DNA of 64,000 nucleotides, from positions 3,595,149-3,659,148 of the forward strand of contig NZ_CP101166.1 in assembly GCF_024298885.1 (NCBI RefSeq), given 5' to 3'. Source of the DNA: Haloglomus halophilum (GTDB lineage: Archaea; Halobacteriota; Halobacteria; Halobacteriales; Haloarculaceae). Shown one piece after another: positions 17,316 to 32,445 of the stretch. Position numbers and translations under genes: made by a program. Below the pieces are notes generated by a model. That model worked only from the letters and a program-made list of their open reading frames with translations. It was not told the origin of the DNA and searched no databases. How positions within the stretch are numbered: the stretch's first letter is position 1; the number at the start of each line of letters is the position of its first letter.

Positions 17316-18950
17316 GTGGTGAGCGTGCGCGACGAGCGCGACTCGTCGGACGACCCCGTGGCCGACGGTGGCGCCGACACGAGCGATGCCGGCGTCTCGG
17401 ACAGCGCGACCGGGCGGGAGATGGACCCCCTGGACGAACTGCGGGCGCGCAAGCGCGACGCCGGTGGCGAGGAGCGTGCCTACCGCCAGCACGACCGGGG
17501 GAAGATGACGGCTCGCGAGCGCGTGGCGTACCTCCTCGACGACGGGTCGTTCCGTGAGGTGGACACGCTCGTCGAGCATCGGTCGACCGCCTTCGAACTG
17601 GCCGAGCGTCACACGCCCGGCGACGCCGTGATGACCGGCTTCGGGACCATCGACGGGCGGCAGGTGGCGGTCTACGCCCACGACTTCACGTTCCTCGGCG
17701 GCTCCGTGGGGGAGGTCGTCGGCGAGAAGATCGCGTCGGTGATGGACCGCGCTATCGAGACGGGGATTCCCATCATCGGCCTGAACGACTCGGCCGGGGC
17801 CCGCATCCAGGAGGGTGTCGACTCGCTCGCCGGGTTCGGGAAGATCTTCCGGCGTGCCACGGAAGCGTCGGGACTGGTCCCGCAGATATCGGCCATCCTC
17901 GGTCCCTGCGCGGGCGGGGCGACGTACGCGCCCGCACTGACCGACTTCGTCTACATGGTCGAGGACACCTCCTACGCGTTCATCACCGGCCCGGATATCG
18001 TCCGGACGGTGACGGGCGAGGAGGTCTCGAAGGAGACCCTCGGCGGCCCCCGGACCCACGCCGTCGACTCGGGGTTCGCGCACCAGGCCTGCCCCTCGGA
18101 GGAAGCCGCGCTCGACGAGATACGAGGGCTCCTCTCGTACCTGCCACAGAACAACATGGAGGACCCACCCCGGACCCGGTGTACGGAGGCTCCGGACCGG
18201 AAGTGCGTGGCCGGCGATATCGTGCCGGACGCGCCACAGAAACCCTACGACGCCATCGGCGTCGTCTCCGAGGTGGTCGACCGCGAGTCGTTCCACGAGG
18301 TCCACGACGGGTACGCGGCGAACGTCGTCGTGGGGTTCGCACGGCTCGACGGGCGGCCGGTCGGCATCGTCGCCAACCAGCCCAGCATCGCGGCCGGGAC
18401 GCTCGACATCGAGGCCTCGCAGAAGGCCGCCCGGTTCGTCCGGTTCTGCGACGCGTTCAACCTCCCCATCTGTACGTTCGTCGACGTGCCGGGGTTCCTG
18501 CCGGGGACGGACCAGGAGCACCGGGGTATCATCCGGCACGGCGCGAAGCTCATCTACGCGTACGCCGAGGCGACCGTTCCGTTGCTGACCGTCATCACGC
18601 GCAAGGCCTACGGCGGCGCCTACATCGTGATGGGGTCGTCGGAACTCGGGGCGGATGCGACCTACGCGTGGCCGGGCGCGGAACTCGCCGTGCTCGGGCC
18701 CAGGGGCGCCGTCGACATCCTCTACCGGGACGAGCTGGCCGACGCCGAGAACCCGGACACCCTGCGGGCCGAGCTGGAGGACCGGTTCCGCGAGGAGTTC
18801 GCCAACCCGTACGGGCCGGCGAAGCACGGCCACATCGACGACATCATCGAGCCGAGCGAGACGCGTCAGCGGCTCGTGGCGGACCTGCGGCTCTTCGAGC
18901 GCAAGCGCGCCGACTCGCCACCGAAGGACCACGGCAACATCCCGCTATGA
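17316..18950 (+). CDS. pccB: Acyl-CoA carboxylase carboxyltransferase subunit (PccB/MmdA type)
   Basis: 544 aa. Transfers the carboxyl group from biotin to propionyl- or acetyl-CoA. The two crotonase-fold halves are clear: [20 protein letters not shown] and SAGARIQEG in the N-domain, then [15 protein letters not shown], and [14 protein letters not shown] plus [12 protein letters not shown] in the C-domain. An acidic N-terminal tail of about 40 residues precedes the core. GTG 17316 or GTG 17319 is preceded by GGGGG. The last base pairs overlap the next gene as ATGA. No biotin carboxylase/biotin carrier gene is next to it, so it must be elsewhere in the genome. Confidence 0.93.
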
Positions 18951-19321: not shown

Positions 19322-19465
19322 CCCATCAACCTCTGACCCTGAATCATAGCTGGATAAATCCGGGAGAAATCCGATATCTACGACAGTTATTCCGCTGTAC
19401 TGCTGATAATACCTTCTCTATGGGTAAAACCGGCCTTCTTAGGCCCACCAAAACATCGTCAAGGT

Positions 19466-19481
19466 TTTAGGAACCCCTAAA
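19466..19481 (+). promoter_or_regulatory. DtxR/SirR-like iron box over the promoter of the iron operon
   Basis: TTTAGG-AACC-CCTAAA is a perfect inverted repeat. Its left arm contains TTTTAG, which sits 27 nt before ATG 19495 and is the best TATA box, so a bound repressor would exclude TBP/TFB. The pattern resembles the TTAGG-N4-CCTAA sites of metal-dependent DtxR/SirR/Idr regulators of haloarchaea. Confidence 0.7.
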
Positions 19482-19494
19482 CAACCCGCTGGCA

Positions 19495-20715
19495 ATGAGT
19501 TCCACTGCGACCCCGGCCGGCCCCGACACGTGTGTCGTGGTTCCGACCATCCGCGAGCACGAGTGCGTGCGCGACTACGTCGCCAACGCCCGCGAGTACG
19601 GGCACGACGACCGGCTCTTCTTCGTCCTCGTCACCGAGGACTTCTGCGACGCCGACGCGATGCGCGAGATGCTGGACGACCTCGACGTGCCCGGCGCGGT
19701 CTTCGACGAGTCCGACCGGCACGACTGGTACGCCGAGCACGGTGTCTCCGATTACGGCCACGTCGTGCCGGCAGCGAGCCACGCACAGACCTCCTTCGGC
19801 CTGCTGTACATGTGGGCCCACGACTTCGAGTACGGCTTCTTCATCGACGACGACACGCTCCCCCACGAGACGGACTTCTTCGGGGGCCACTACGACAACC
19901 TCTCGTACGAGGGCTCCATCACGGAGGTCCGGTCGGCCGACGACGACCAGCGCTGGGTCAACGTCCTCTACCAGAACTTCGACGAGCACGGCCTCTACCC
20001 GCGCGGCTACCCGTACGCGGCGATGGGCGGCGGCCACGAGACCGAGGAGGTCGAACTCGCCCGGGGCGACGTGGTCGCCTCGCAGGGGCTCTGGACGAAC
20101 GTCCCGGACCTCGACGCGGTCCGCATCCTGATGGACGGCGACCTCCAGGGACAGGCGCAGACCCTGACCAGCCGCGAGGACTTCGGCGAGGACTTCGTCT
20201 GTGCGCCCGGCCACTACACCACCGTCTGCTCGATGAACCTCGCCTTCCGCCGCGAGGTGATTCCGGCCTTCTACCAGCTCCCGATGGACGACAACGAGTG
20301 GGACGTGGGGCGGTTCGACGACATCTGGTCGGGCGTCTTCCTCAAGCGCGCGGCCGACATCCTCGGCAAGCGCGTTCTCACGGGTACGCCGCTCTGTGAG
20401 CACAACAAGGCCCCTCGGTCGACGTTCGACGACCTCAACAACGAGGTGCCGGCGCTGGAGCTGAACGAGCACGTCTGGCGCGTGGTCGATGATGCCGGTA
20501 CCGACGCGAACACCTTCCGTGGCGCGTTCGCTGCGATGGCCGACGCGCTCGCCGAGGGCGAGTTCGAGGAGTGGAACAACGGCGACTTCCTCGTCTTCGT
20601 CGGCGAGCATATGCAGGACTGGCTCGACTGTCTGGATTCGCTGGACGCCGGCCAGCCCGTCCCGGCCGGGCCGGGTCGCACCGTCGCGGAGACCGGGGGT
20701 GAGGCCGATGACTGA
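19495..20715 (+). CDS. RGP/GT75-like protein (often labelled alpha-1,4-glucan-protein synthase)
   Basis: 406 aa, soluble. Starts with CVVVPTIREHECVRDYV, a Rossmann-like nucleotide-sugar strand, and has FFIDDDTLP (the DDD metal/nucleotide motif), HGLYPRGYPYAAMGGG and EWDVGRFDDIWSGVFLKRA, all typical of reversibly glycosylated polypeptides. Plant relatives are UDP-arabinopyranose mutases or autoglycosylating proteins. The archaeal reaction is unknown. The gene heads the iron-transport operon under the iron box and overlaps the lipoprotein gene by 8 nt, so it is probably translationally coupled to it. Confidence 0.85.
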   Translation: MSSTATPAGPDTCVVVPTIREHECVRDYVANAREYGHDDRLFFVLVTEDFCDADAMREMLDDLDVPGAVFDESDRHDWYAEHGVSDYGHVVPAASHAQTSFGLLYMWAHDFEYGFFIDDDTLPHETDFFGGHYDNLSYEGSITEVRSADDDQRWVNVLYQNFDEHGLYPRGYPYAAMGGGHETEEVELARGDVVASQGLWTNVPDLDAVRILMDGDLQGQAQTLTSREDFGEDFVCAPGHYTTVCSMNLAFRREVIPAFYQLPMDDNEWDVGRFDDIWSGVFLKRAADILGKRVLTGTPLCEHNKAPRSTFDDLNNEVPALELNEHVWRVVDDAGTDANTFRGAFAAMADALAEGEFEEWNNGDFLVFVGEHMQDWLDCLDSLDAGQPVPAGPGRTVAETGGEADD

Positions 20716-21883
20716 GGACTCCGAACACACGAGCCGGACCCGTCGCCGGTTCCTCGCCGCGGCCGGCGCCGTCGGCGCAACGGGGCTCGCGGGCTGTAAC
20801 GGCATCCTCGGCGACGGCGGTGACGGCGGCGATGGCGGTAGCGGCAACGGCGGGAACACCCTCGAGGACTTCCGCGGTTCGGGTGCCAACGTCGGCGGCC
20901 GTGGGGAGATTCGCGGAACCCGGATGGACGACCTTCCGGACCTGTCGGGCCAGCTCAACATCTACCTCGGCGGCGGCGAGGGCGGTCTCTACACCGATCT
21001 CCTGAGCCTGCTGGGCCAGCGCTACCCCGAGTTCGAGCCCAACTTCCGGCTGGAGCCCAGCTCCCAGCTCGTCAGCAAGATCGACGAGGAGCAGTCCGCC
21101 GGCGGCGGCAGCTTCGCGGACGTGTTCTGGGCGGTCGACGCCGGTTCGCTCGCCGCCGTCGCCTCGCAGGGGTACACCCGCGCGCTCCCGGACGACCTCG
21201 TGGAGCCGGTCCTCGAGGAGTACCATCCCGACAACCAGTGGGTCGGGGTCGCCGGCCGGGCCCGTGCGGTCCCGTACAACACGAACCAGCTCTCCGAGAG
21301 CGACATCCCCGACAAGGTCAGCGACTTCCCCGACACGGAGGCGCTTCAGGGGGCGATGGGCTGGGCGCCGACGTACGGCTCCTTCCAGGCGTTCATCACG
21401 GCGATGCGGCTCATCCGGGGCGACCAGGCCACGAGGCAGTGGATAACCCGGATGCAGGAGGCCGGCGTCCAGCAGTACCCCAACGAGTTCGTCGTCTCCA
21501 ACGCGGCCGCCGACGGCGAACTCGCCGCGGGCTTTGCCAACCACTACTACGCGCTCCGGGTCAAGGCCGCCCGCTCGAACGCCCCTCTCGACCTGGCGTT
21601 CACGAGCGGCGACGCCGGCGCGCTCATCAACGTCTCCGGCGCCGAGATCCTGACGGGGACGAACAAGGTCGACCTCGCGGAGAACTTCATCGCCCACCTC
21701 CTCACGGTGGAGGCCCAGGAGTTCTTCGCGACGCGGACCTTCGCCTACCCGATGATCGAGGGAGTGCCGCCGGTCGGGGGTCTTCCGCGGGTCAGCGAGC
21801 TGAACCCGCCGGATATCGACCTGCAGAAGCTCGACGACATCGAGGGGACCATAGACCTGCTCCGCGATACCGGGGCGCTGTAA
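20708..21883 (+). CDS. Ferric-iron-type ABC transporter substrate-binding lipoprotein
   Basis: 391 aa. The N-terminus has a Tat-like RTRRRFL followed by a lipobox LAGC with Cys at residue 30, then a Gly/Asp-rich linker that spaces the domain from the membrane. The body has the extracellular solute-binding fold of the Fe3+ (FbpA/AfuA) group: LNIYLGGGEGGLYTDLLSLL, FADVFWAVDAGSL and GRARAVPYNTNQLSES. Start ATG 20708 overlaps the end of the RGP gene. The iron assignment comes from family resemblance, the permease/ATPase partners and the upstream iron box. Confidence 0.88.
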   Translation: MTEDSEHTSRTRRRFLAAAGAVGATGLAGCNGILGDGGDGGDGGSGNGGNTLEDFRGSGANVGGRGEIRGTRMDDLPDLSGQLNIYLGGGEGGLYTDLLSLLGQRYPEFEPNFRLEPSSQLVSKIDEEQSAGGGSFADVFWAVDAGSLAAVASQGYTRALPDDLVEPVLEEYHPDNQWVGVAGRARAVPYNTNQLSESDIPDKVSDFPDTEALQGAMGWAPTYGSFQAFITAMRLIRGDQATRQWITRMQEAGVQQYPNEFVVSNAAADGELAAGFANHYYALRVKAARSNAPLDLAFTSGDAGALINVSGAEILTGTNKVDLAENFIAHLLTVEAQEFFATRTFAYPMIEGVPPVGGLPRVSELNPPDIDLQKLDDIEGTIDLLRDTGAL

Positions 21884-21889
21884 CGGTCG

Positions 21890-23503
21890 ATGTCCACCCG
21901 CGAGGAGCTGGCCGCGCTCCGGGAGCGACTCCGGCGCGAGGCCGACGGCGACGGGCTCGGCCTGACACTGCTGAGTGCGGCCATCGCCGCCGTCCTTCTC
22001 TCGCCGGTCGCGTGGCTGTTCCTCCGGGTGACCGACATCCCGACGGCCGAGGCGCTCTCGCTGCTGACCGCGCCCTCGACGACGCGGGTCCTCACGAACA
22101 GCGTCGCCCTCGTGGCGACGGTCACGACTGCCACCATACTGCTGGGGGTCCCGCTGGCCCTGCTCACCGCCCGGACGGACCTCCCGTTCCGGCGCTTCTT
22201 CACGGTCGTCCTCGCGCTGCCGCTGGTGGTCCCCTCCTACATCGGCGCGTTCGCCTTCGTCTCGGCGTTCGGACCCCGCGGCGTGCTGGCCGACGCGCTC
22301 GCACCGCTGGGCGTGGAGCGGTTGCCGGAGATCTACGGTCTCCCGGGTGCGACGCTGGTCCTGACGCTGTACGTCTACCCGTACGTCTTCCTCACGACGC
22401 GCGCGGCGCTGTTCTCGCTCGATGCCTCGCTGGTCGAGGCCGCGCGAACGCTCGGGAAGGGCCGGGTCGGGGCCTTCCGCGAGGTGACGCTCCCACGCAT
22501 CGTCCCCGGTATCGCCGCGGGCGCGCTGCTGGTGGCGCTGTATACGCTGTCGGATTTCGGGACGCCGACCATCATGCAGGTCGACGTGTTCACCTCCTAC
22601 ATCTACGTCGCGTACAACGGGTTCGCGGCCGACCAGGCGGCGCTGCTCTCGATGCAGTTGCTCGGCGTCACCACCGTCATCCTCGCGCTGGAATCGCGGA
22701 TCGGGCAGGACGACGCCAGCGCCTACGCCTCGGGTGGCGGTGGCTCGGCGACCCGCATCCAGCTGGGGGCGTGGCGGTGGGTCGCGGCGCTGTGCTGTCT
22801 CGTCGTCGCCGGCCTCGCGCTCGTGCTCCCGGTCGGCATCCTCCTCATGTGGCTGTTCCGGGGCGGGCTGGGGTACAGCGGGGGTGGGTTCGAGTTCGAA
22901 CTCCTCTTCGCGCTCAACTCCATCGGTGTCTCGGCGGCGGCCGCGCTCGTCTCGGTCCTGCTCGCCGTCCCCGTCGGGTACGTGGCGGTGCGCCGGGCCT
23001 CGATTCCGGCACGGCTGGCCGAGCGTGCCACCTACGTCGGCTACGCGATGCCCGGCGTCGTACTGGGGCTGGCGCTGGTCTACTTCGGCGTCCGGTTCGT
23101 CCCGACGCTGTACCAGACCCTGCCGTTGCTGGTGTTCGCCTACGTCGTCCGGTTCCTCCCGCAGGCCGTCGGTACGACCACCTCGTCGGTGCTGCAGGTC
23201 GATACCCACCTGCTGGAGGCCGCGCGCGCGCTGGGCCAGTCGCCCGGTGGAGCCTTCCGACGGGTGACGCTCCCGCTCATCTGGCCCGGCGTGCTCGCCG
23301 GGGCCGCGCTGGTCTTCCTCACGACGATGAAGGAACTCCCCGCGACGCTCCTGCTTCGTCCGACAGGTTTTGAAACGCTCGTGAGCTACATCTGGCGAGT
23401 ACAGGGTGCGGCCTACTACGGGCAGGCTGCGATTCCGGCACTGACGCTGATCGTGGTCTCGGCCTGTTCGATGGCCGTCATCCTGGCACAGGAGCGACGC
23501 TGA
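21890..23503 (+). CDS. Iron-type ABC transporter permease, fused double domain
   Basis: 537 aa with about twelve hydrophobic segments, two homologous permease halves in one chain as in FbpB/AfuB. Each half has an EAA loop that docks the ATPase: EAARTLGKGRVGAFREVTLP (about 183-202) and EAARALGQSPGGAFRRVTLP (about 442-461). It starts 6 bp after the lipoprotein stop and ends 1 bp before the ATPase start. Confidence 0.92.
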   Translation: MSTREELAALRERLRREADGDGLGLTLLSAAIAAVLLSPVAWLFLRVTDIPTAEALSLLTAPSTTRVLTNSVALVATVTTATILLGVPLALLTARTDLPFRRFFTVVLALPLVVPSYIGAFAFVSAFGPRGVLADALAPLGVERLPEIYGLPGATLVLTLYVYPYVFLTTRAALFSLDASLVEAARTLGKGRVGAFREVTLPRIVPGIAAGALLVALYTLSDFGTPTIMQVDVFTSYIYVAYNGFAADQAALLSMQLLGVTTVILALESRIGQDDASAYASGGGGSATRIQLGAWRWVAALCCLVVAGLALVLPVGILLMWLFRGGLGYSGGGFEFELLFALNSIGVSAAAALVSVLLAVPVGYVAVRRASIPARLAERATYVGYAMPGVVLGLALVYFGVRFVPTLYQTLPLLVFAYVVRFLPQAVGTTTSSVLQVDTHLLEAARALGQSPGGAFRRVTLPLIWPGVLAGAALVFLTTMKELPATLLLRPTGFETLVSYIWRVQGAAYYGQAAIPALTLIVVSACSMAVILAQERR

Positions 23504-23504
23504 T

Positions 23505-24746
23505 ATGGCACGACAGGACAGGACGACGGCGGAGGCCAGGGCGACGGACCACGACGGCGTCGAGGAGCGACTGGACCGCACGCGGGCGGACCCTACGCTC
23601 GACGACGGTGATGTCGGCTGGGCCGTCGAGGAGGAGGCGGGCGCGGAGGGGACCGTGCTCGAACTCGACGGCGTCACGAAGCGGTTCGGCGACACCGTGG
23701 CCGTCGACGATGTCTCGATGACCGTCTCCGACGGCGAACTGCTCACGCTGCTCGGGCCGTCTGGCTGTGGGAAGACGACGACGCTCCGCCTCCTCGCGGG
23801 CCTGGAACGTCCCGACGAGGGCGTCATCCGACTGAACGGCGAGCCAGTCGCCGTGGGCGCCGAGGGCGGCGCCGCCGCGACCGAGACCGGCGATGTCGAC
23901 GACGGCCGCTTCCTCCCGCCCGAGGAGCGCGACGTGGGACTCGTCTTCCAGGACTTCGCGCTGTTCCCACACCTCAGCGTCGCCGAGAACGTCGCCTTCG
24001 GCCTAGAGGGCGAGGCCGGGGCGAACGCCGAGCGCGTCAATGACCTGCTCGACCTCGTCGACCTCCCGGGGTACGAGGACCGGCGACCCGACGAACTGTC
24101 CGGTGGCGAGCGCCAGCGTGTCGCGCTCGCGCGGTCACTCGCGCCCGAACCGGCCGTCCTCCTGCTCGACGAGCCGTTCTCGAACCTCGACGTCCGGCTC
24201 CGGGTCGCGATGCGCGAGGAGGTCCGCGACATCCTCAAACGAGCCGGGGTGACGGCCGTCTCCGTCACCCACGACCAGGAGGAGGCGCTCTCCATCTCCG
24301 ACCGCGTGGCCGTCATGAACGGCGGCCACGTCGCGCAGATCGGCAGTCCCGAGGGGCTGTTCCAGCACCCCGAGTCCCGCTTCGTCGCGAGTTTCCTGGG
24401 GCAGGCCTCCTTCCTCGACGCCGAGGTCCAGCCGGACTGTATCGAGACGGGCCTGGGCTGTGTCGACGACGACGACCTGGCCGGCCCCATCGACGCCTAC
24501 GACGGCACCCACATCCAGATACTCGTCCGCCCGGACGACCTCCGGGCAACGCCCGCGACTGAGGATGGCGCCGACGGCCGCATCGTCCGCCGCCAGTACA
24601 ACGGCCCGACGTTCGTCTACCGCGTCGAGCTCGACAGCGGCGACACCGTCCACTGCATGCACAACCACGTCGAGGAGTTCGCCGTCGGACAGTCGGTGAC
24701 CGTGGAGCTGACCGCCGACCACGAACTCGCCTGGTATCCGCCCTGA
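23505..24746 (+). CDS. ABC transporter ATP-binding protein (FbpC type)
   Basis: 413 aa. Walker A GPSGCGKTT (about 85-93), Q-loop VFQDFALFPH, signature LSGGERQR (about 198) and Walker B LLLDEP are intact; a C-terminal TOBE-like domain (HIQILVRPDDLRATP) follows. An N-terminal extension of about 50 acidic residues and a roughly 20-residue insert before the Q-loop (GAEGGAAATETGDVDDGRF) are unusual and probably surface loops. It powers import through the preceding permease. Confidence 0.93.
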   Translation: MARQDRTTAEARATDHDGVEERLDRTRADPTLDDGDVGWAVEEEAGAEGTVLELDGVTKRFGDTVAVDDVSMTVSDGELLTLLGPSGCGKTTTLRLLAGLERPDEGVIRLNGEPVAVGAEGGAAATETGDVDDGRFLPPEERDVGLVFQDFALFPHLSVAENVAFGLEGEAGANAERVNDLLDLVDLPGYEDRRPDELSGGERQRVALARSLAPEPAVLLLDEPFSNLDVRLRVAMREEVRDILKRAGVTAVSVTHDQEEALSISDRVAVMNGGHVAQIGSPEGLFQHPESRFVASFLGQASFLDAEVQPDCIETGLGCVDDDDLAGPIDAYDGTHIQILVRPDDLRATPATEDGADGRIVRRQYNGPTFVYRVELDSGDTVHCMHNHVEEFAVGQSVTVELTADHELAWYPP

Positions 24747-24753
24747 TTCGACC

Positions 24754-27012
24754 GTGACCGCCCCGTCCCTCCGTGTTCCGCTCGTCGACCGGCTCCCGGA
24801 CGACGACCGCACCCGCCATCGACTCGCCGCCGCGGCCCTCGCGCTGGTCGCCGGCGCCGTCGTCCTGCTGGTCTCGTACCGGGTGTTCCCGTACCTCTCG
24901 ACCAACCACGACGAGGGCGTCTACCTCCAGCAGGCGGCGATGCTGCTGGAGGGGCAACTGGTCATCCGGCCGCCCGTGGACGTGACCTTCCGCCCGTGGT
25001 TCTTCGTGAAGTCGGGGGCCGAACTCTACCCGAAGTACACGCCCGTCACGGCCGCCGTCTTCGCTGTCGGGATGGCGCTCGGCGACCCGCGGCTCTCGCT
25101 CGCGGCCGTCGCCGCCGCGCTCGTCGCGCTGACGTACGCCGTCGGCGCCGAGGCGTTCGACCGGCGGACGGGACTGCTCGGCGCCGGACTCGTCGCCCTC
25201 TCGCCGTTCTACCTCGTCCAGGCCGCCACCTTCCTCCCGTACGCGCCGACGCTGGCCTTCGAACTCCTGTTCGCGTGGGCGTACCTGCGCGGGGCGCGAA
25301 CGGGGTCGCGTCCGCTCGCGGCCGTGGCCGGCCTCGCCATCGGCGTCGCCTTCTTCGCGCGGCCCTACACGGCGGTCCTGTTCGCGACACCGTTCGTCGT
25401 CCACGCGCTGTGGACGCTCGGCCGGGCCGCGATGGCGGGTGAAGGTACCGGGCGGGGACTCCTCCCCGTGACGCTCCAGCAGGGGCTCGTCGCCGTCGGC
25501 GGCCTCGTCGGCGTCGGCGCGACGCTCGCGTACAACGCCCGGATGACGGGTGACCCGTTCACCTTCCCGTACCAGGTGTTCGCCCCCCGTGACGGCCTCG
25601 GGTTCGGGACCCGGCGCATCCTCGGCTACGAGCGCGACTACACGCTCGCACTGGCACTGGAGGCGAACGCACGCGTCGTCCGTGCGCTCCTGACGCGCTG
25701 GGTCGTCGCCGGTCCGCTGGGGACGGGACTCGCCGCCGTCGGACTCGGGGCCACCGCGCTCCAGGTCCGGCGGGCGCTCGCCCGACGGGGGCGCGGACTG
25801 GTCGGTGCCGCCGTCCGTCGGGATGGCGGGGTCACCGGTATGGACGGTGAGGGCACCGACCCGGACCGGACCGACCGCCTCGCCCCCCGGCTCGTCCTCG
25901 CCGGGCTCTTCGCGAGTGTCGTCCTCGGGAACGTCTACTTCTGGGGGAACCTGAACGTCCTCGGTGCGGTCGACGTCGCGGGTGACGGTCTCATCTCGTT
26001 CTACGGGCCGTACTACCACTTCGACCTCGTCGTCCCGACGGCGCTGTTCGCGGCGGTCGCCCTCCGGCTGCTGGCGGGCCGCTGGCGGTCGCTCGTCGCG
26101 TCACGGCTCGACGGTGACGCCGCCCGCCGGGTGGCCGCAGCCGGGCTCCTCGTGGGCGCGCTCGTCGTCGGGGGGACGGGCGTCGCCGTCGCGGCCGACC
26201 CGCTGGCCGAGAACGACGCCAACTCCGACCAGCTCGCCGCGGCCTACGAGCCGTTCGAGCCGCGCCCGCCCGCCGGAGTGGTGTTCCTCCCGACGCCGTA
26301 CGGGGACTGGCTCAACCACCCGTTCCAGGCCCTCCGTAACGACCCCTCATTCGACGGCCGGACGGTGTACGCCATGCGCGAGAACCAGTTCGCCGTCGTG
26401 GACGCCTACCCGAACCGGGCACTGTACCGCTACGGGTTCCAGGGTGACTGGGCGCCGTTCCTCGGCGAGCCGGTCGAGCCACGCCTCTACCGCATCCGCC
26501 ACGTGCGCGGCGAGCGTGTCACAGTCCGCACGGCTCTCGGCGTGCCCGAGGGCGTCGACACGATGACCGTCCGGCTCGCCGGCGGCGGCGAGAGCACCTA
26601 CTACTCGGTCGTCGGGCCGCCGGAGGAGTTGAACGCACGCATCGTCGTGGGCGATGGCCGGGCGCGGCTGCTGGGCTCCGACGTGGTCCCGGTCGATTCG
26701 AACGACACGTCGGTCCCGGTCCACGCCCGCGACGAGGTGCTGCTGGAGGCCAACGCCGAGTACGCACCCGGGAACGCGTTCACCTACCGGCTGGAGACGC
26801 CCGTGGCCCTCGAGGAGGGGGAGTGGCGCGTCCTGACCCCACATCCGGAGGTCTGTCGCGGCGCCGACCTCTGCGACGGGGAGGCGGCCTATGTTCCGGA
26901 GACGGCCCTCCCCGGGGTGACCGTCGAGACGCGGCTCTCGGCGGACGCCGGCGTGGCCACGAACGCGACAGCAAGCGACCGGACGGCGGCGGCGGAGGTG
27001 GGAACGCGATGA
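24754..27012 (+). CDS. GT39/ArnT-like polytopic membrane protein
   Basis: 752 aa from GTG 24754. The first extracytoplasmic loop has NHDEGVYLQQAAMLL, the acidic catalytic loop position of the PMT/ArnT (GT-C, family 39) glycosyltransferases. About ten membrane helices follow, then a long extracellular C-terminal domain from about residue 490. GT-C enzymes transfer sugar from a lipid-phosphate donor outside the membrane. The donor and acceptor are unknown. Only 7 bp separate it from the ATPase gene, so it belongs to the iron-box operon. Confidence 0.75.
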   Translation: MTAPSLRVPLVDRLPDDDRTRHRLAAAALALVAGAVVLLVSYRVFPYLSTNHDEGVYLQQAAMLLEGQLVIRPPVDVTFRPWFFVKSGAELYPKYTPVTAAVFAVGMALGDPRLSLAAVAAALVALTYAVGAEAFDRRTGLLGAGLVALSPFYLVQAATFLPYAPTLAFELLFAWAYLRGARTGSRPLAAVAGLAIGVAFFARPYTAVLFATPFVVHALWTLGRAAMAGEGTGRGLLPVTLQQGLVAVGGLVGVGATLAYNARMTGDPFTFPYQVFAPRDGLGFGTRRILGYERDYTLALALEANARVVRALLTRWVVAGPLGTGLAAVGLGATALQVRRALARRGRGLVGAAVRRDGGVTGMDGEGTDPDRTDRLAPRLVLAGLFASVVLGNVYFWGNLNVLGAVDVAGDGLISFYGPYYHFDLVVPTALFAAVALRLLAGRWRSLVASRLDGDAARRVAAAGLLVGALVVGGTGVAVAADPLAENDANSDQLAAAYEPFEPRPPAGVVFLPTPYGDWLNHPFQALRNDPSFDGRTVYAMRENQFAVVDAYPNRALYRYGFQGDWAPFLGEPVEPRLYRIRHVRGERVTVRTALGVPEGVDTMTVRLAGGGESTYYSVVGPPEELNARIVVGDGRARLLGSDVVPVDSNDTSVPVHARDEVLLEANAEYAPGNAFTYRLETPVALEEGEWRVLTPHPEVCRGADLCDGEAAYVPETALPGVTVETRLSADAGVATNATASDRTAAAEVGTR

Positions 27013-27590
27013 CGGGCGACGACCGCGACGCCGACGCCAGCCTCACCCGGCGCGACGCGATGGCGGCACTGACGGCGGCCGGCGCGGCCACGGCGCTGGG
27101 CGGCACGCTCTCGTGGGCCGTGCTGAACGAGGCTGGCGATGACGACGCGACGACCGAGGGGTTCACCGAGCGCGACCGCGAGACGCTCGTCGCGCTGGCC
27201 GAGCATCTCTACCCGTCGACCGTCACGGGCATCCCCGAGTTCGTCGAGCGGTACACGGTCGGCCGGGTCCGCGACCGCCCCGAGTACGCCACCGGGATGC
27301 GCGAGGCACTCGCGGCGCTCGACGAGTACGCCGTCCAGTGGACGGACGAGCGGTTCGTCGACCTCGATACAGACCGTCGTGGAACCCTCCTGAACAGCAT
27401 GGGCGTCACGCGGGCGACGCCCGAGCCGGACGGGCTGGACCCCGAGCGGGTCCGGTTCTACCTCGTCAACGAACTCCTGTTCGCGCTCTACTCGTCCCCG
27501 ACCGGCGGGAAGCTGGTCGGTATCGAGAACCCGCAGGGACACCCCGGCGGGACGACGAGCTACCGGCAGCCGCCGGACGCGGACCGCTGA
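27009..27590 (+). CDS. Gluconate 2-dehydrogenase subunit 3-like Tat protein
   Basis: 193 aa, ATGA overlap with the preceding gene. SLTRRDAMAALTAAG is a twin-arginine signal with a hydrophobic core. The body (DRETLVALAEHLYPSTVTGI, then FVERYTVGRV, and FYLVNELLFALYSSPTGGKL) matches gluconate 2-dehydrogenase subunit 3, the small subunit that escorts or supports a membrane-bound flavoprotein. The large GMC and cytochrome subunits are not next to it; the nearest GMC enzyme is more than 20 kb away and lacks a signal peptide. Its partner is therefore unclear. Confidence 0.8.
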   Translation: MTGDDRDADASLTRRDAMAALTAAGAATALGGTLSWAVLNEAGDDDATTEGFTERDRETLVALAEHLYPSTVTGIPEFVERYTVGRVRDRPEYATGMREALAALDEYAVQWTDERFVDLDTDRRGTLLNSMGVTRATPEPDGLDPERVRFYLVNELLFALYSSPTGGKLVGIENPQGHPGGTTSYRQPPDADR

Positions 27591-27703
27591 ATCGACCCGA
27601 CGGCCCCGCCAGCTCGGTCATCTGTGTCGGTTGGAACTGCCGTCGGTCGCGGCTGTCTAGTAATTCGGCCCGACTCTTACGGGGCTCGACGCGCTCGCCA
27701 CGG

Positions 27704-28018
27704 ATGATGTCAGCCAGCAACCGTACCCCGGAGGTCGAACAGGCCTACGACCATCTCGACGACGTCGAGACGCAGGTCCCCGGGAGCGTCCCCCACACGC
27801 CGGAGCGCCTCGAACAGCTCCGGGCGAGCGTCCAGGCGTACGAGAACACCGAGGACGAGTCCGACCAGGTGGAGCTGCTCGACCGTATCGACCGGGAGAT
27901 CGACGAACTCCGCGACGCCATCGAGCGCGAGGTCGAGGAGGGAGCCGACGCGGCCCACGAGGCGCTCGAGAAGACCGAACGGCGCCTCTCCGAACTCCGG
28001 GACCGACTCCACAGCTGA
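27704..28018 (+). CDS. Small coiled-coil haloarchaeal protein
   Basis: 104 aa, starting at the first of two adjacent ATGs (27704, 27707). Almost entirely charged helix with heptad-like spacing: VELLDRIDREIDELRDAIE, then ALEKTERRLSELRDRLHS. CTCTTACGG at about 27673 is a TATA candidate about 28 nt before the start. It resembles small haloarchaeal DUF proteins of unknown function; no catalytic residues are evident. Confidence 0.65.
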   Translation: MMSASNRTPEVEQAYDHLDDVETQVPGSVPHTPERLEQLRASVQAYENTEDESDQVELLDRIDREIDELRDAIEREVEEGADAAHEALEKTERRLSELRDRLHS

Positions 28019-28054
28019 CCGGCTGTTCCTGATTCCCGTCGCTGCTCGCGACGT

Positions 28055-28864
28055 TCAGCGGTCACGACCACCGGTCGCACAGAGCGCGTCGACGCCGGCA
28101 CCGAGGTCCGCGGCCGGCGGCAGCCGCCGCTTGTGCCGTGACGATGCCCACCGTTCGGCGAGTCGTTCGACCAGTTCGCGGTCGGCGTCCGTCTCCGCCG
28201 CGACGGCTTCGGTGGACCGGTCGCGCTCGACCAGTCCGACCAGCACCGGGTCGATGGTCGCGTAGTCCGCACCCAGTTCCGCCTCGTCGGTCTGTCCCTC
28301 CCAGAGTTCCGCGGTCGGCTGCTTCTCGGCGAACCGGTCGTCGAGGTCGGTCGCGCGGGCGACCTCGTAGAACTCGGTCTTGTAGAGGCGCCGGAGCGGC
28401 GCCACGTCCACCGCGCCGTCGCCGTATTTGGTGAAGTAGCCCAGCAGGTACTCGCTCCGGTTCTCCGGCCCCAGAACGAGCGCGTCCCGGCGGTTGGCGG
28501 CCTGGTAGAGGAGGACCATCCGGGTCCGGGCACGGACGTTGCCGAGGGCGAGTCGTCCGAGATCCGCCGGCGTCGTCCCCCGGAACGCCTCGACGACCGG
28601 CTCGATATCGACGACGCGGTGGTCGATGCCGAGGCGCTCACACAGGTCGATGGCGTCGGTCGTGTGCGTCTCGGAACTCGGCGCCCCCGGGAGCACCAGC
28701 CCCGTGACGGCGTCCGCGCCGACGGCTTCCACGGTCAGTCGTGACGCGAGTGCCGAGTCGAGCCCACCGCTGACGCCGACGACGTAGCCCTCGGCACCCG
28801 ATTCCGCGAGGTAGTCGGCGATGAACCGCTCTGCCGTCTCCACCGCGCGGGGAACGTCGACCAT
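28055..28864 (-). CDS. nadE: NAD+ synthetase, ammonia-dependent
   Basis: 269 aa. Amidates nicotinate adenine dinucleotide to NAD+ using ATP. The PP-loop VSGGLDS lies at about residues 30-36. GPENRSEYLLGYFTKYGDGAVD is the conserved substrate/ATP segment and LYKTEFYEVAR the dimer helix. There is no N-terminal glutaminase domain, so ammonia is the likely nitrogen donor. ATG 28864 (MVDVPRAVETAERFI) fits archaeal NadE starts. Convergent with the coiled-coil gene, divergent from the thiolase. Confidence 0.93.
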   Translation of the reverse strand: MVDVPRAVETAERFIADYLAESGAEGYVVGVSGGLDSALASRLTVEAVGADAVTGLVLPGAPSSETHTTDAIDLCERLGIDHRVVDIEPVVEAFRGTTPADLGRLALGNVRARTRMVLLYQAANRRDALVLGPENRSEYLLGYFTKYGDGAVDVAPLRRLYKTEFYEVARATDLDDRFAEKQPTAELWEGQTDEAELGADYATIDPVLVGLVERDRSTEAVAAETDADRELVERLAERWASSRHKRRLPPAADLGAGVDALCATGGRDR

Positions 28865-28954
28865 GGCGGGGGCAGTGGCTCCCCGGACATAGCTCTCGGG
28901 GCGACGGGGCGGGATGCCCAAACAGTTACGCCGCCGCCGCGGGACGCCTCGTGT

Positions 28955-30112
28955 ATGCGCGACGTAGCAATCGTCGGGGCGTCGATGACGAAGTTCGGCG
29001 TCCGCGAGGACGAGTGGGTGATGGACCTGCTCGCCGAGGCCGGCGGGGCCTGTATCGCGGACGCGGGTATCACGCCCGACGACATCGACCATCTGTACGT
29101 GTCGAACATGGCCAGCGGGGAGTTCGAGGGGCAGACCGGCGTCCCGAACGCGCTGGCCCACGACCTCGGTGCCATCCCCGCCTACACCCAGCGCGTCGAC
29201 CAGACCTCCTCCTCGGGCGCGGCGGGGATGTACGCCGCCTGGCAGTCGGTCGCCTCGGGAGCGAGCGACCTGACGCTGCTCGTCGGCGGCGAGAAGATGA
29301 CCCACCGGACGACGGGGGAGGCGACCGACGTCATCGCCTCGCTGACCCATCCGGTCGAGTACAAGCAGGGCGTCACGCTCCCGTCGTTCGCGGGGCTGAC
29401 CGCGCGCCACTACCTCGACCGGTTCGACGCCCCCCGGGAGGCCCTCGGCCACGTCGCCGTCAAGAACCACTCTAACGGCGCGTTGAACCCGAACGCGCAG
29501 TTCCAGAAGGAGATAACCCTCGAGAAGGCGCTGGAGTCGCCGATGGTGGCCGACCCGCTGCGGCTGTACGACTTCTGCCCCGTCACGGACGGGTCGGCGG
29601 CGCTCGCGCTCGTCCCGGCCGAGCACGCCGAGTCCTACGCCGACGAGTTCGCCCGCATCGCGGGCATCGCGGGCGCCACCGACACCCACGTCGTCCACGA
29701 ACGTGCCGACCCGACGCACATGGGTGCGGTCGCCGAGTCCGGTGCCGCCGCGTTCGAGCAGTCGGGCCACGAACACGAGGACGTCGACGTGGCCGAACTC
29801 CACGACATGTTCACCATCCTGGAGGTGATGCAACTGGAGGCGCTGGGCTTCGAGGAGCAGGGCGAGGGCTGGCGCGCCGCGATGGAGGGCCGCTCGGCCC
29901 GCGACGGTGAACTACCTATCAACACGTCGGGCGGGCTGAAATCGAAGGGGCACCCGCTGGGCGCGAGCGGCGTCGCTCAGGCCGTCGAGGTGTACGAGCA
30001 ACTCGTCGGCGGCGCCGGCGACCGCCAGGTCGAGGCCGATGTCGGCCTGGCCTGCAACGTGGGTGGCTTCGGGAACTGTGTCATCACCACCATCATGGAG
30101 GCGGGCGCATGA
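28955..30112 (+). CDS. Thiolase-fold protein with Ser in place of the nucleophilic Cys
   Basis: 385 aa, full thiolase length. VDQTSSSGAAGMYAAWQ (from about residue 82) occupies the position where thiolases have the acyl-accepting Cys (usually CASG or CSSG). GGLKSKGHPLGASG supplies the catalytic His, and GGFGNC retains the C-terminal Cys. Loss of the first Cys suggests either no covalent acyl intermediate or a different reaction. It overlaps the OB-fold gene by ATGA; archaeal thiolases commonly pair with such DUF35 proteins to channel CoA substrates, for example in the mevalonate pathway. Confidence 0.85.
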   Translation: MRDVAIVGASMTKFGVREDEWVMDLLAEAGGACIADAGITPDDIDHLYVSNMASGEFEGQTGVPNALAHDLGAIPAYTQRVDQTSSSGAAGMYAAWQSVASGASDLTLLVGGEKMTHRTTGEATDVIASLTHPVEYKQGVTLPSFAGLTARHYLDRFDAPREALGHVAVKNHSNGALNPNAQFQKEITLEKALESPMVADPLRLYDFCPVTDGSAALALVPAEHAESYADEFARIAGIAGATDTHVVHERADPTHMGAVAESGAAAFEQSGHEHEDVDVAELHDMFTILEVMQLEALGFEEQGEGWRAAMEGRSARDGELPINTSGGLKSKGHPLGASGVAQAVEVYEQLVGGAGDRQVEADVGLACNVGGFGNCVITTIMEAGA

Positions 30113-30513
30113 GCGACGACGAGCACCGCCGCGTGGCCGACGGTGGCACCCCTCCGATGGCGGCCGCGCGCTACGAGGACGGCAGCATCACCTACCCACC
30201 GCACCCCGTCGGGCCGGACGGGAGCGAACCCGTCGAGGAGGTCGATCTCTCCGAGTACACCGCCGAGGTCGTCACCTGGACGACCAGCCACGCCACGCCG
30301 CCGGGCGTCCGCGAGCCGAACACGCTCGCAATCGTCGAGTTCGACGTGGACGGCACGCCGGTCCGGGCGCTTGGACAGTGCACCACCGAGGACGTCGGCA
30401 TCGGCGACACCGTCGAGCCGGTGTACGTCGCGGAACTGCGCGACCCGGACGCGGGCATCCGCGAACGGGAGAGCCAGCGCTGGGACGGCTACCGGTTCGA
30501 GCCCGTCGAGTAA
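30109..30513 (+). CDS. OB-fold protein of the DUF35 type, lacking the zinc ribbon
   Basis: 134 aa. The C-terminal part (AEVVTWTTSHATPPG, LAIVEFDVDGTPVRALGQ, GIGDTVEPVYV) has the OB-fold pattern of DUF35 proteins that bind CoA thioesters beside thiolases. The N-terminal rubredoxin-like Cys-x2-Cys pairs normally present are absent; only one Cys occurs in the chain. Co-translation with the Ser-variant thiolase is indicated by the ATGA overlap. Confidence 0.75.
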   Translation: MSDDEHRRVADGGTPPMAAARYEDGSITYPPHPVGPDGSEPVEEVDLSEYTAEVVTWTTSHATPPGVREPNTLAIVEFDVDGTPVRALGQCTTEDVGIGDTVEPVYVAELRDPDAGIRERESQRWDGYRFEPVE

Positions 30514-30530
30514 CTCCGGACGGAGCGCCG

Positions 30531-31310
30531 TCAGGAGTCGTCAGGGTCGTCCGCGGTGGGGTCGTCACCCTGGTCCGCCTCCTCATCGTCGCGGCCGGCC
30601 TGTTCCTTGAGCGAGGCGAGTTCCGCATCGACATTGACCGTCGGCCCCCGGTCACGCTCGGCCTCGTGGTCGTCCCGTGCGGCATCGTCGGTGGGTTCCA
30701 TCGCGGCGAGCCGCTCGTCTATCTCACCGCGTAGCTCCCGGGCGTCGGCCAGCAGTCGCCGGGCCGTCGGGTCCTCGGGGTCCCCCTCGTAGGTCCGCTG
30801 GAGTTCGGCCAGCGCGTCGTCGACACGGGAGAGCGCCTCGCGCCCGCTGGCCGCGGCCCGTTCGCCCGCTGCTGTCGATACGTCCGCGAGGACGCTCCCC
30901 CCGTCGCGGTTGCGACGGTCCGGCGAACGGGGGTCGCGGCCGTCCAGCAGCCGGATGGTACCGGCCAGCAGTTCCAGCCCACGGATGGCGGCCTCGAGGA
31001 ACGCCACGACGGTCGGGATGGTGTACCGCTCCGTGAAGGTGAGCAGTTCGCGCGGTGACGGCGGGCGCGGGAGCACCGGCCCACCGGAACCGGGACGGCG
31101 TCGGCTGGGCGGCCGACTCTCCTCGTCGACCTCCGCCCGGAGCTGGCGCAGCGTCGCCTCCAGTTCGTCCACCAGCGCGCCGAGGTCATCGTCGCGGGTG
31201 CGGACAGGTCGGCGGTCGTGCCGGCTGTCGGCCGCCCGGTCACCACGCTCGTCCCCCGGTGGACTCACCTGTACGGGGATGGGCTCGCCGCCGGCCTTCC
31301 AGTCGCTCAT
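30531..31310 (-). CDS. Haloarchaeal conserved charged protein, possibly membrane-associated
   Basis: 259 aa, function unknown. An acidic N-terminal region with a helix (LGALVDELEATLRQLRAEVD) is followed by PPSPRELLTFTERYTIPTVV and AFLEAAIRGLELLAGTIRLL. The latter is hydrophobic enough to lie at a membrane and looks like the conserved core. A coiled-coil segment and a very acidic tail (DDEEADQGDDPTADDPDDS) follow. It shares the divergent region carrying the iron box at 31381 with the 49-aa gene. Confidence 0.65.
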   Translation of the reverse strand: MSDWKAGGEPIPVQVSPPGDERGDRAADSRHDRRPVRTRDDDLGALVDELEATLRQLRAEVDEESRPPSRRRPGSGGPVLPRPPSPRELLTFTERYTIPTVVAFLEAAIRGLELLAGTIRLLDGRDPRSPDRRNRDGGSVLADVSTAAGERAAASGREALSRVDDALAELQRTYEGDPEDPTARRLLADARELRGEIDERLAAMEPTDDAARDDHEAERDRGPTVNVDAELASLKEQAGRDDEEADQGDDPTADDPDDS

Positions 31311-31371
31311 ATCGGGGACTGCGGGGCCGACCGGGAAAACGCTCCCGCTGGTTTAGGAAGACCGAAATCCT

Positions 31372-31392
31372 CTTTACCTCTAGGCTCACCTA
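31372..31392 (+). promoter_or_regulatory. TATA box plus DtxR/SirR-like box before the 49-aa gene
   Basis: TTTACC at 31373-31378 is about 27 nt from ATG 31401. TAGG-CTCA-CCTA (31381-31392) lies between it and the start, where a repressor would block initiation. The arms match the box at 19466. Confidence 0.6.
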
Positions 31393-31400
31393 ATCGGCTG

Positions 31401-31550
31401 ATGGAAGCCACTCGCAGTCGGGATTCCGAGACGCCGGAGGCGCCCCGGGTCACCGCCCACGGGACCTCCCCCGAGCGCACCGTGTTCACCGAGGAGGGGA
31501 ACCCGGACGCGTGGATCGCGACGGACACCCTCACCGAACTCGAGAACTGA
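31401..31550 (+). CDS. 49-aa acidic protein of a small haloarchaeal family (DUF7331-like)
   Basis: Begins MEATRSRDSETPEAPR and ends with TVFTEEGNPDAWIATDTLTE. The DAW-I-x-[TS] ending matches the C-termini of the two small proteins at 45832 and 46099 (TAWVQADL and DAWIQSSV), so all three seem to belong to one family. A leaderless promoter with an iron-type box is present. No function is known; small size, acidity and the control site suggest a regulatory or stress role. Confidence 0.65.
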   Translation: MEATRSRDSETPEAPRVTAHGTSPERTVFTEEGNPDAWIATDTLTELEN

Positions 31551-31729
31551 CCCCGCGACCGTTCTGGAGCTGTTCGCTGCCGTCTCGATTGCTGTTCTGG
31601 ATGTTCGCACCGAATATCGCCAGCAACAGCTGGAAACAGAGGATTATCTGATAATACTACACGGAAGGGGGAACAGCATCCGGCCGAGAGTGGCCGGCGA
31701 CGCACGTCAGCGTGTGGCGACGGGAGCCG

Positions 31730-32278
31730 TCAGTGAGTGGCCTCGTCGAGAACCAGCGTGTCGTCCTCGAGGTAGTGCTCGAGGTGGTGCGCGTGGTCCT
31801 CGAGGTCCTCGAGGTAGCGCCGGAGGATCTCGGCGGAGGTGTAGTCGCCGAAGTCCTCCATCATCCCGATGTGGTCGCGCATCGTCTCGATCATGTCACC
31901 GAACATCTCCATGTCGTTCGCGAGGGAGGTCCGGATGTCGTACACGTCCTCGCCCTCGAACTCGACGGGGGCACGCTCCTCGAGATTCGCGGGGCCGGCG
32001 ACCGGGACGCCGCCGAGGGCCTGCGCACGCTCGGCGAAGGCGTCGGCCGCGAGCTCGAGGTCCTCGGCCACCTCACCGAGGTACTCGTGGAGCTCGAGGA
32101 ACTCCGCACCCTCGACGTTCCAGTGGTGCTTCCGGACCTGATGGTACGCGACGTACGACGCGGCGAGGTCGGTGTTGAACGCGTCGACGATCTGCTCTGC
32201 CTTGTCCTGGTCCATCCGGAGCGCGTCGCTCCCTTCCACGGTGTCTGCCTGCTGACGGACGTTCTTCTGGGTACTCAT
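31730..32278 (-). CDS. dpsA: DNA-protecting ferritin-like protein DpsA
   Basis: 182 aa. Four-helix Dps fold with the intersubunit ferroxidase residues: His in AYHQVRKHHWNVEG, Asp and Glu in DLELAADAFAERAQALGG. The EDVYDIRTSLANDMEMFGDM and EDFGDYTSAEILRRYLEDLE helices follow. DpsA oxidises Fe2+ with peroxide and stores the mineral, preventing Fenton damage. The haloarchaeal form is the main iron store. TATA box ACTTAAGT (32305-32312) is about 30 nt upstream; an iron-type box lies further upstream at 32367. Confidence 0.95.
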   Translation of the reverse strand: MSTQKNVRQQADTVEGSDALRMDQDKAEQIVDAFNTDLAASYVAYHQVRKHHWNVEGAEFLELHEYLGEVAEDLELAADAFAERAQALGGVPVAGPANLEERAPVEFEGEDVYDIRTSLANDMEMFGDMIETMRDHIGMMEDFGDYTSAEILRRYLEDLEDHAHHLEHYLEDDTLVLDEATH

Positions 32279-32304
32279 TGCGTTCTAATGTCCGCCCGCC
32301 GGCC

Positions 32305-32312
32305 ACTTAAGT
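32305..32312 (-). promoter_or_regulatory. TATA box of dpsA
   Basis: ACTTAAGT, about 28-30 nt before the dpsA ATG at 32278, so the transcript is leaderless or nearly so. Confidence 0.6.
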
Positions 32313-32366
32313 CTTGGCGAGACGGAAAGCAGTTTTTCGGTTCGGCAAAGAATAGTTCTCGATAGC

Positions 32367-32378
32367 TAGGCGTGCCTA
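32367..32378 (-). promoter_or_regulatory. DtxR/SirR-like box upstream of dpsA
   Basis: TAGG-CGTG-CCTA, the same arms as the boxes at 19466 and 31381. It lies about 55 bp upstream of the dpsA TATA box rather than over it, which fits activation or looping better than simple blocking. The only gene reading away from it is dpsA, since the amidase gene ends at 32446. Confidence 0.55.
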
Positions 32379-32445
32379 ATCGACGGTCGGGCACGGGGCG
32401 CAGGGAATCAGGACGGCTGCGGGGTGTCGACCGGCCATTCGCTAG

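Follow-up and report, generated by a model that had tools for sequence, protein, structure and literature searches.

Three palindromic boxes, each with TAGG and CCTA arms four bases apart, lie in a 64,000-nucleotide stretch of the Haloglomus halophilum genome (contig NZ_CP101166.1, positions 3,595,149 to 3,659,148 of the forward strand; hereafter "the window"). They stand before an ATP-binding cassette (ABC) operon headed by a gene of the reversibly glycosylated polypeptide (RGP) family, before a 49-aa protein gene of the DUF7331 type and before dpsA. We consider it probable that these boxes are operators of one metal-dependent DtxR-family regulator that, when iron is plentiful, would repress the uptake and DUF7331 genes and activate dpsA. 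Common membership in a regulon and a repressing geometry at the first two promoters are strongly supported as predictions from promoter architecture, and activation of dpsA, which is suggested by box position, is plausible.

The observations behind this proposal are the sites themselves, their single spacing, their conserved positions and the DtxR-family genes that the genome carries. Exact TAGGN4CCTA occurs in the window at boxes 1, 2 and 3 only, the cores of the latter two being TAGG-CTCA-CCTA (31381-31392) and TAGG-CGTG-CCTA (32367-32378); an earlier sequence-only reading, which had placed three operators with common arms and N4 spacing here, is confirmed on this point. When 31 spacings were tested across the 4.45-Mb genome (TTAGGN{0,30}CCTAA), eight sites emerged, all eight with N=4, and they start 18–54 bp before predicted gene starts. 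The shorter pattern TAGGN{0,30}CCTA has 69 genome sites; N=4 accounts for 11 among the 50 matches listed, the three window boxes within them, and other spacings for at most four each. Degenerate matches behave differently: at one mismatch the window count is 6 against 5.26 expected, and at up to two the genome count is 142 against 571 for a reversed-pattern control, so there is no excess in either case and in the second a count below the control. Because no excess is seen at one mismatch, the statistical weight lies with the exact arms alone, and degenerate sites prove nothing by number.

Relative to the TATA elements, which are predictions read from the sequence, the three boxes are placed in three ways. 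Box 1 overlaps a TTTTA (19465-19469), box 2 stands in the interval from TTTAC (31373-31377) to ATG 31401, and box 3 lies upstream, with CTTAAG (32306-32311) 54 bp downstream of it on the dpsA strand. This is the arrangement that the sequence-only reading had described, and it is kept throughout the samples, which cover 12 to 18 genera for each gene. That reading had gone on to predict two repressing positions and a different mode at dpsA; the conserved geometry sustains the prediction, while activation at dpsA is an argument from position. It had overlooked the weaker partner boxes 27–28 bp upstream of boxes 1 and 2 (Table 1), and the right half-site of one of these, TTAGGAAGACCGAA, coincides with a CCGAAA directly before TATA that resembles a B recognition element (BRE).

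Table 1. Boxes, promoter elements and genes of the locus, in positions of the window.
Feature	Position	Strand	Remarks
Box 1, TTTAGG-AACC-CCTAAA	19466..19481	+	exact; overlaps TATA; 14-mer at -28 from ATG 19495
Distal box TTAGGCCCACCAAA	19439..19452	+	one mismatch; 28 bp upstream of box 1
Box 2 (proximal, DUF7331 promoter), CTAGGCTCACCTAA	31380..31393	+	between TATA and start codon, -21
Distal box TTAGGAAGACCGAA, DUF7331 promoter	31353..31366	+	one mismatch; 27 bp upstream of box 2
Box 3 (dpsA), TTAGGCACGCCTAG on dpsA strand	32366..32379	.	-101 from ATG, upstream of TATA
TATA-like CTTAAG of dpsA	32306..32311	-	-33 from ATG
dpsA, ferritin-like DNA-protection/iron-storage protein	31730..32278	-	PF00210; NCBIfam NF041388 DpsA 278 bits, cut-off 170
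49-aa DUF7331 protein gene, convergent with dpsA	31401..31550	+	PF24018 24.3 bits, below cut-off 27
RGP-family gene, first of operon	19495..20715	+	PF03214, 51.4 bits
ABC substrate-binding protein	20702..21883	+	PF13416/PF13343
ABC permease, two BPD_transp_1 stretches	21890..23503	+	PF00528
ABC ATPase with TOBE domain	23505..24746	+	PF00005, PF08402
PMT_2/DUF7846 protein, last in conserved cluster	24754..27012	+	PF25230, PF13231; synteny
"CCase"	17316-18950		putative label from reading the translation
"Thiolase"	28955-30112		putative label from reading the translation

At the RGP-ABC operon, 29 of 30 RGP homologues from 12 genera carry a box 17–37 bp before the chosen start (exact TTAGGN4CCTAA in 27), typically in a T-rich TATA region, and L143 is the sole homologue that has none there. 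A second box lies 26–29 bp further upstream in 11 of the 30 promoters; in the two congeners examined it is either the same sequence as in the window (L119) or a perfect palindrome (L120). Regions that have both the RGP and the binding-protein gene (16, window included) show an extra box between them in 12 cases. It is absent from the window and from the congener L162, where the two genes overlap, and from L156; in L151 it falls inside the binding-protein match.

The 49-aa protein behind box 2 falls below the Pfam gathering threshold and is therefore strictly DUF7331-like, and by alignment and synteny it shares the conserved VFxExxN-WIxxD core and the locus of the DUF7331 family. PF24018 is matched at E <=0.01 by 32 of 44 aligned homologues, V28, E31, W38 and I39 are invariant in the alignment, and the predicted fold is a three-stranded sheet (mean pLDDT 76, pTM 0.45). 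Among the best 80 of 213 relatives the nearest is from Haloglomus irregulare (84%), and 92 of the 96 family genomes searched have a copy. Its promoter was compared in two sets of loci, in both of which the DUF7331 start is the ATG chosen after the last box, on which exact offsets depend. One set comprises 70 dpsA loci (30 search matches plus 40 hand-picked from the match list; 65 genomes, 18 genera), two genomes of which, G024 and G083, look nearly identical; the other comprises the best 80 DUF7331 relatives just mentioned, at least 13 of them the same records as in the first set.

In the 70-locus set at least 55 loci have a DUF7331 gene no more than 1.5 kb downstream of dpsA and on the other strand—convergent by construction, as only that strand was covered—and tblastn against larger regions of the same genomes found two more (L052, L053). 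Every one of the 55 dpsA-linked promoters has a box (both boxes in 36, proximal only in 13, distal only in 6). The proximal box, present in 49 of 55, reads TAGGN4CCTAA in 49/49. The distal box stands at the same place in 42 of 55; its position 12 is A in 33, G in 8, C in 1 and T in none of these 42, which makes the right arm CCRAAA, immediately ahead of a T-rich TATA. We take this motif to resemble the haloarchaeal BRE, and on that likeness two dimers would occupy the BRE and the start region with TATA between them.

The 80-locus set, searched on both strands, gives the same picture, as a box lies within 60 bp before the DUF7331 start in 80/80, at -47 to -49 and/or -20 to -23 in 77; the frequency was 56/14342 (0.4%) in random 60-bp windows taken from these loci and 123/11000 in shuffled promoters. 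dpsA is found within 4 kb in 41 of these loci and is convergent in all 41; the gap is about 10 bp or less in five loci and exceeds 1 kb in two others, L183 and L247, while the window has 179 bp. Of 20 DUF7331 copies that lie away from dpsA, 14 also carry the box, namely 12 of the 13 that are alone in their genome and 2 of the 7 second copies. Five second copies are box-less (L338–L341, L346) and two have a box at -22 (L342, L345), which rules out the idea that second copies always lack one.

In conservation the dpsA box falls well short of boxes 1 and 2. Close relatives keep it: at -101 it is found in 5/5 distinct genomes of the genus or adjoining it (our own, G057, G045, G033 and Haloglomus irregulare L169), which retain the TAGG and CCTA arms around four spacer sequences. 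More widely, 29 of the 70 dpsA promoters (10 of 18 genera) have an intact box starting at -57 to -101, where "intact" covers 25 TTNGGN4CCNAA boxes and four from our own genus whose outer positions hold C or G. All 29 lie upstream of the core promoter, whose TATA-like element falls between -32 and -34 in most promoters of the set (best match, -42 to -22 searched), as expected of dual regulation by position. In the 80-locus set, where the search could not recognize the own-genus form, a box with intact core stands between -68 and -97 in 16 of 41 dpsA promoters. The position of box 3 argues against simple occlusion and suits activation; in Halobacterium a lower level of DpsA under low iron has been reported (PMC3600143). 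The distance from the first base of the box to that of TATA is mostly 36–38, then 55–59 and 64–68, with 45 and 23 as exceptions, and given this spread we do not claim strict helical phasing. T and A tracts are repeated at fairly even distances upstream of the dpsA TATA (window 32290-32360; L048–L117), with or without a box.

Beyond the window, the genes behind exact sites are three Peripla_BP_2 genes, a FecCD permease, a 2Fe-2S ferredoxin and a GMC oxidoreductase, besides the RGP gene of the window. The Peripla_BP_2 and FecCD genes form one siderophore-type cluster, which also holds one of four strong DtxR-family genes and has paired boxes 36 bp apart before three genes. One-mismatch boxes precede genes for an aconitase, an aminotransferase class-V protein, a ZIP transporter, a cupin and a DUF7551/DUF7552 protein, as well as a glycosyltransferase gene, a YlbF-like gene and a C2 gene without a family; at one-mismatch sites in an AT-rich stretch near C1:263000 and at C1:1191094 no gene was assignable. 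The single iron regulon of the sequence-only reading gains from the same box at siderophore-type transport genes and the ferredoxin, but as it reaches beyond the window, the word "small" was too narrow.

Individual sites differ in placement. The exact box of the GMC oxidoreductase is at about -23 (L027:3854-3867, own genome), and the one-mismatch box of the aminotransferase class-V gene, which resembles a cysteine desulfurase, extends just to the first base of the start codon (L033:3440-3453, own genome). Aconitase and ferredoxin boxes are seen at L034:3384 and L030:3614 in our genome and in L278, L282, L288, L324 and L327; in the genera that have them, they may reflect iron-replete activation of iron–sulfur (Fe-S) proteins. 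The DUF7551/DUF7552 protein has its box 53 bp before the start (L026:3819-3832, own genome), and another DUF7552 protein is encoded inside the siderophore-type cluster (L025:8269-8754, own genome); judged by these placements, this may be a second family without an assigned role that belongs to iron metabolism.

The genome encodes candidate regulators for such boxes. Seven genes of the genome exceed the PF01325 cut-off, four of them strongly, and together with the iron-gene targets they support the view, already taken from the sequence alone, that the boxes are of DtxR type. Two of the four strong genes also have PF02742, and one of these has FeoA as well, as in IdeR. The product of this three-domain gene matches IdeR in the PDB (E 4.8e-28), and the gene has a match in 57/57 family genomes searched. 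Besides IdeR, the best solved relatives of this universal protein are metal regulators such as SloR and ScaR, and the Cys of IdeR EVHAEACRWEH is Asp in its DVHDEADRLEH. This position of the DtxR metal site presumably influences metal choice, and with Asp there the metal may be manganese. A search of 20 larger regions (tblastn, E <=1e-4) found no DtxR gene beside the dpsA-RGP cluster.

From these positions we infer binding, the metal and the direction of control as follows. When iron is plentiful, the metal-loaded regulator dimer would bind the 14-bp palindrome TTAGGN4CCTAA. At the RGP-ABC operon it would sit inside the TATA region, and at DUF7331 two dimers would flank TATA, covering the BRE and the start region; in both cases TBP/TFB assembly would be blocked and the genes kept off. 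At dpsA the regulator would lie upstream of TATA, where it would not block TBP and TFB and would most likely help to recruit them, so that storage rises. When iron is scarce the regulator would leave, uptake and DUF7331 would come on and dpsA would go down.

Several observations weigh against one or another part of this proposal. Some of them concern dpsA: 41 of 70 promoters in one set and 25 of 41 in the other have no intact box, which makes the dpsA arm not universal; two loose matches (L105, L108, both at -42) overlap TATA; and the distance from box to TATA varies. The gene also answers to other inputs, as CopR acts on it under heat in Halobacterium (PMC5605881) and oxidative stress does so in Haloferax (PMC12482152), as reported. 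For the RGP-ABC operon, which had been called iron-type, the ABC genes are there, but the first gene is of the RGP family and an iron substrate is not established: none of the three subunits (20702-24746) reaches a cut-off against NCBIfam, their best scores are to putative 2-aminoethylphosphonate transporter models (all below cut-off), and the ATPase scores 288 bits against the ferric ABC ATPase model PRK11432, whose cut-off is 496. Among the other targets, the GMC oxidoreductase (an exact site), the glycosyltransferase, the YlbF-like gene and the family-less C2 gene have no evident iron role, and conservation is patchy at aconitase (boxes in 6 of 30, at -72 to -77) and ferredoxin (10 of 30, 5 exact, mostly at -53 to -62). 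The universal DtxR gene, finally, has no box of its own (present in 0/20), and the idea of its autoregulation is rejected.

Some of these points feed a different account of dpsA, which we regard as rather unlikely: that the regulon is as proposed but its dpsA box represses from a distance, is silent or serves an unannotated transcript, with the iron response of dpsA coming from elsewhere. The box-less promoters and the CopR and oxidative-stress inputs fit this account, as do the T and A tracts, which many box-less promoters keep at the same place and which suggest that another element may drive dpsA. Yet the arms at -101 are kept in all the near genomes while the spacer changes, every intact box lies upstream of TATA, and no divergent gene was recognized behind box 3, since among open reading frames of 45 aa or more only antisense ones flank the intergenic stretch of 167 bp. 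It is distinctly less likely that manganese is the chief signal at the boxes, or that they serve several DtxR paralogues that differ in their metals, instead of iron being the sole signal. Four strong family members, the kinship of the universal protein to SloR and ScaR and its Asp in place of the IdeR Cys all allow this, but the targets (DpsA, siderophore-type uptake, Fe-S proteins) point to iron.

The convergent arrangement suggests a further alternative, that the DUF7331 unit acts mainly as an RNA, its iron-starvation transcript entering the 3' end of dpsA and lowering DpsA by antisense pairing. Convergence at all 41 loci with dpsA nearby, and the five very short gaps, would suit it; the conserved residues and predicted sheet of the protein, the boxes kept at copies away from dpsA and the wide gaps in the window, L183 and L247 would not, and we consider it improbable. 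That the palindromes are chance occurrences, or are unrelated to DtxR, we hold to be very improbable indeed, since for the exact sites chance is disfavoured by the single spacing among 31 tested and promoter positions are conserved over the 12 to 18 genera sampled; what speaks for chance is the lack of excess over controls among sites with one or two mismatches.

Across the locus the genes and boxes run in the order CCase, boxes, RGP, substrate-binding protein, permease, ATPase, PMT, thiolase, boxes, DUF7331, dpsA and nitrilase. The full order from CCase to nitrilase is kept in the congener L162; other larger regions preserve it in part, the RGP-ABC block often being reversed.

Repression of uptake together with activation of storage is a logic already known from other systems. 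Haloferax TroR is reported (Martinez Pastor 2024) to repress uptake and induce storage when iron is sufficient, and Leyn and Rodionov in 2015 reportedly treated archaeal DtxR operators by comparative genomics. As in a haloarchaeal DtxR regulon, we find an operator of fixed spacing with TTAGG and CCTAA arms, a DtxR gene in the genome and targets in iron uptake, storage and iron use. The likeness is to the Haloferax volcanii TroR and Halobacterium Idr1-Idr2-SirR-TroR network, i.e., haloarchaeal iron homeostasis under several DtxR-family proteins (PMC11349517 and PMC6978704); unlike there, the genus is a different one and the regulator is one of several candidate DtxR genes. Corynebacterium glutamicum DtxR, which represses uptake genes and activates dps and ftn (PMC1382209), resembles the control proposed here in its two directions. 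It differs in its bacterial promoters and 19-bp sites, whereas ours are palindromes of 14 bp around an archaeal BRE and TATA, and by eye the sites here (14–16 bp, four free central bases) do not fit the bacterial 19-bp DtxR/IdeR consensus of that paper.

What appears to be new is the DUF7331 gene, conserved, seemingly under box control and in many loci convergent with dpsA. PF24018 is a family without an assigned function, to which a conserved box-bearing promoter is now added; the term DUF7331 had no match in the literature searched, where older locus names could hide an earlier mention, and its paired boxes and its link to dpsA may be undescribed so far. A tentative extension, possible though on the doubtful side, is that DUF7331 is a haloarchaea-wide small protein dedicated to iron starvation that acts on DpsA (for example by release of its stored iron, a block of loading or a mark for removal), in which case DUF7331 and dpsA would be opposite outputs of one regulator through boxes of the same sequence that flank one promoter and lie upstream of the other.

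Taken together, what began as a guess from sequence is now a regulon with good support, whose operators hold precise and conserved positions. It lends itself naturally to testing how a single archaeal DtxR-type protein may repress or activate according to its position relative to BRE and TATA, and it would place DUF7331 in a concrete setting—iron starvation, often beside dpsA.

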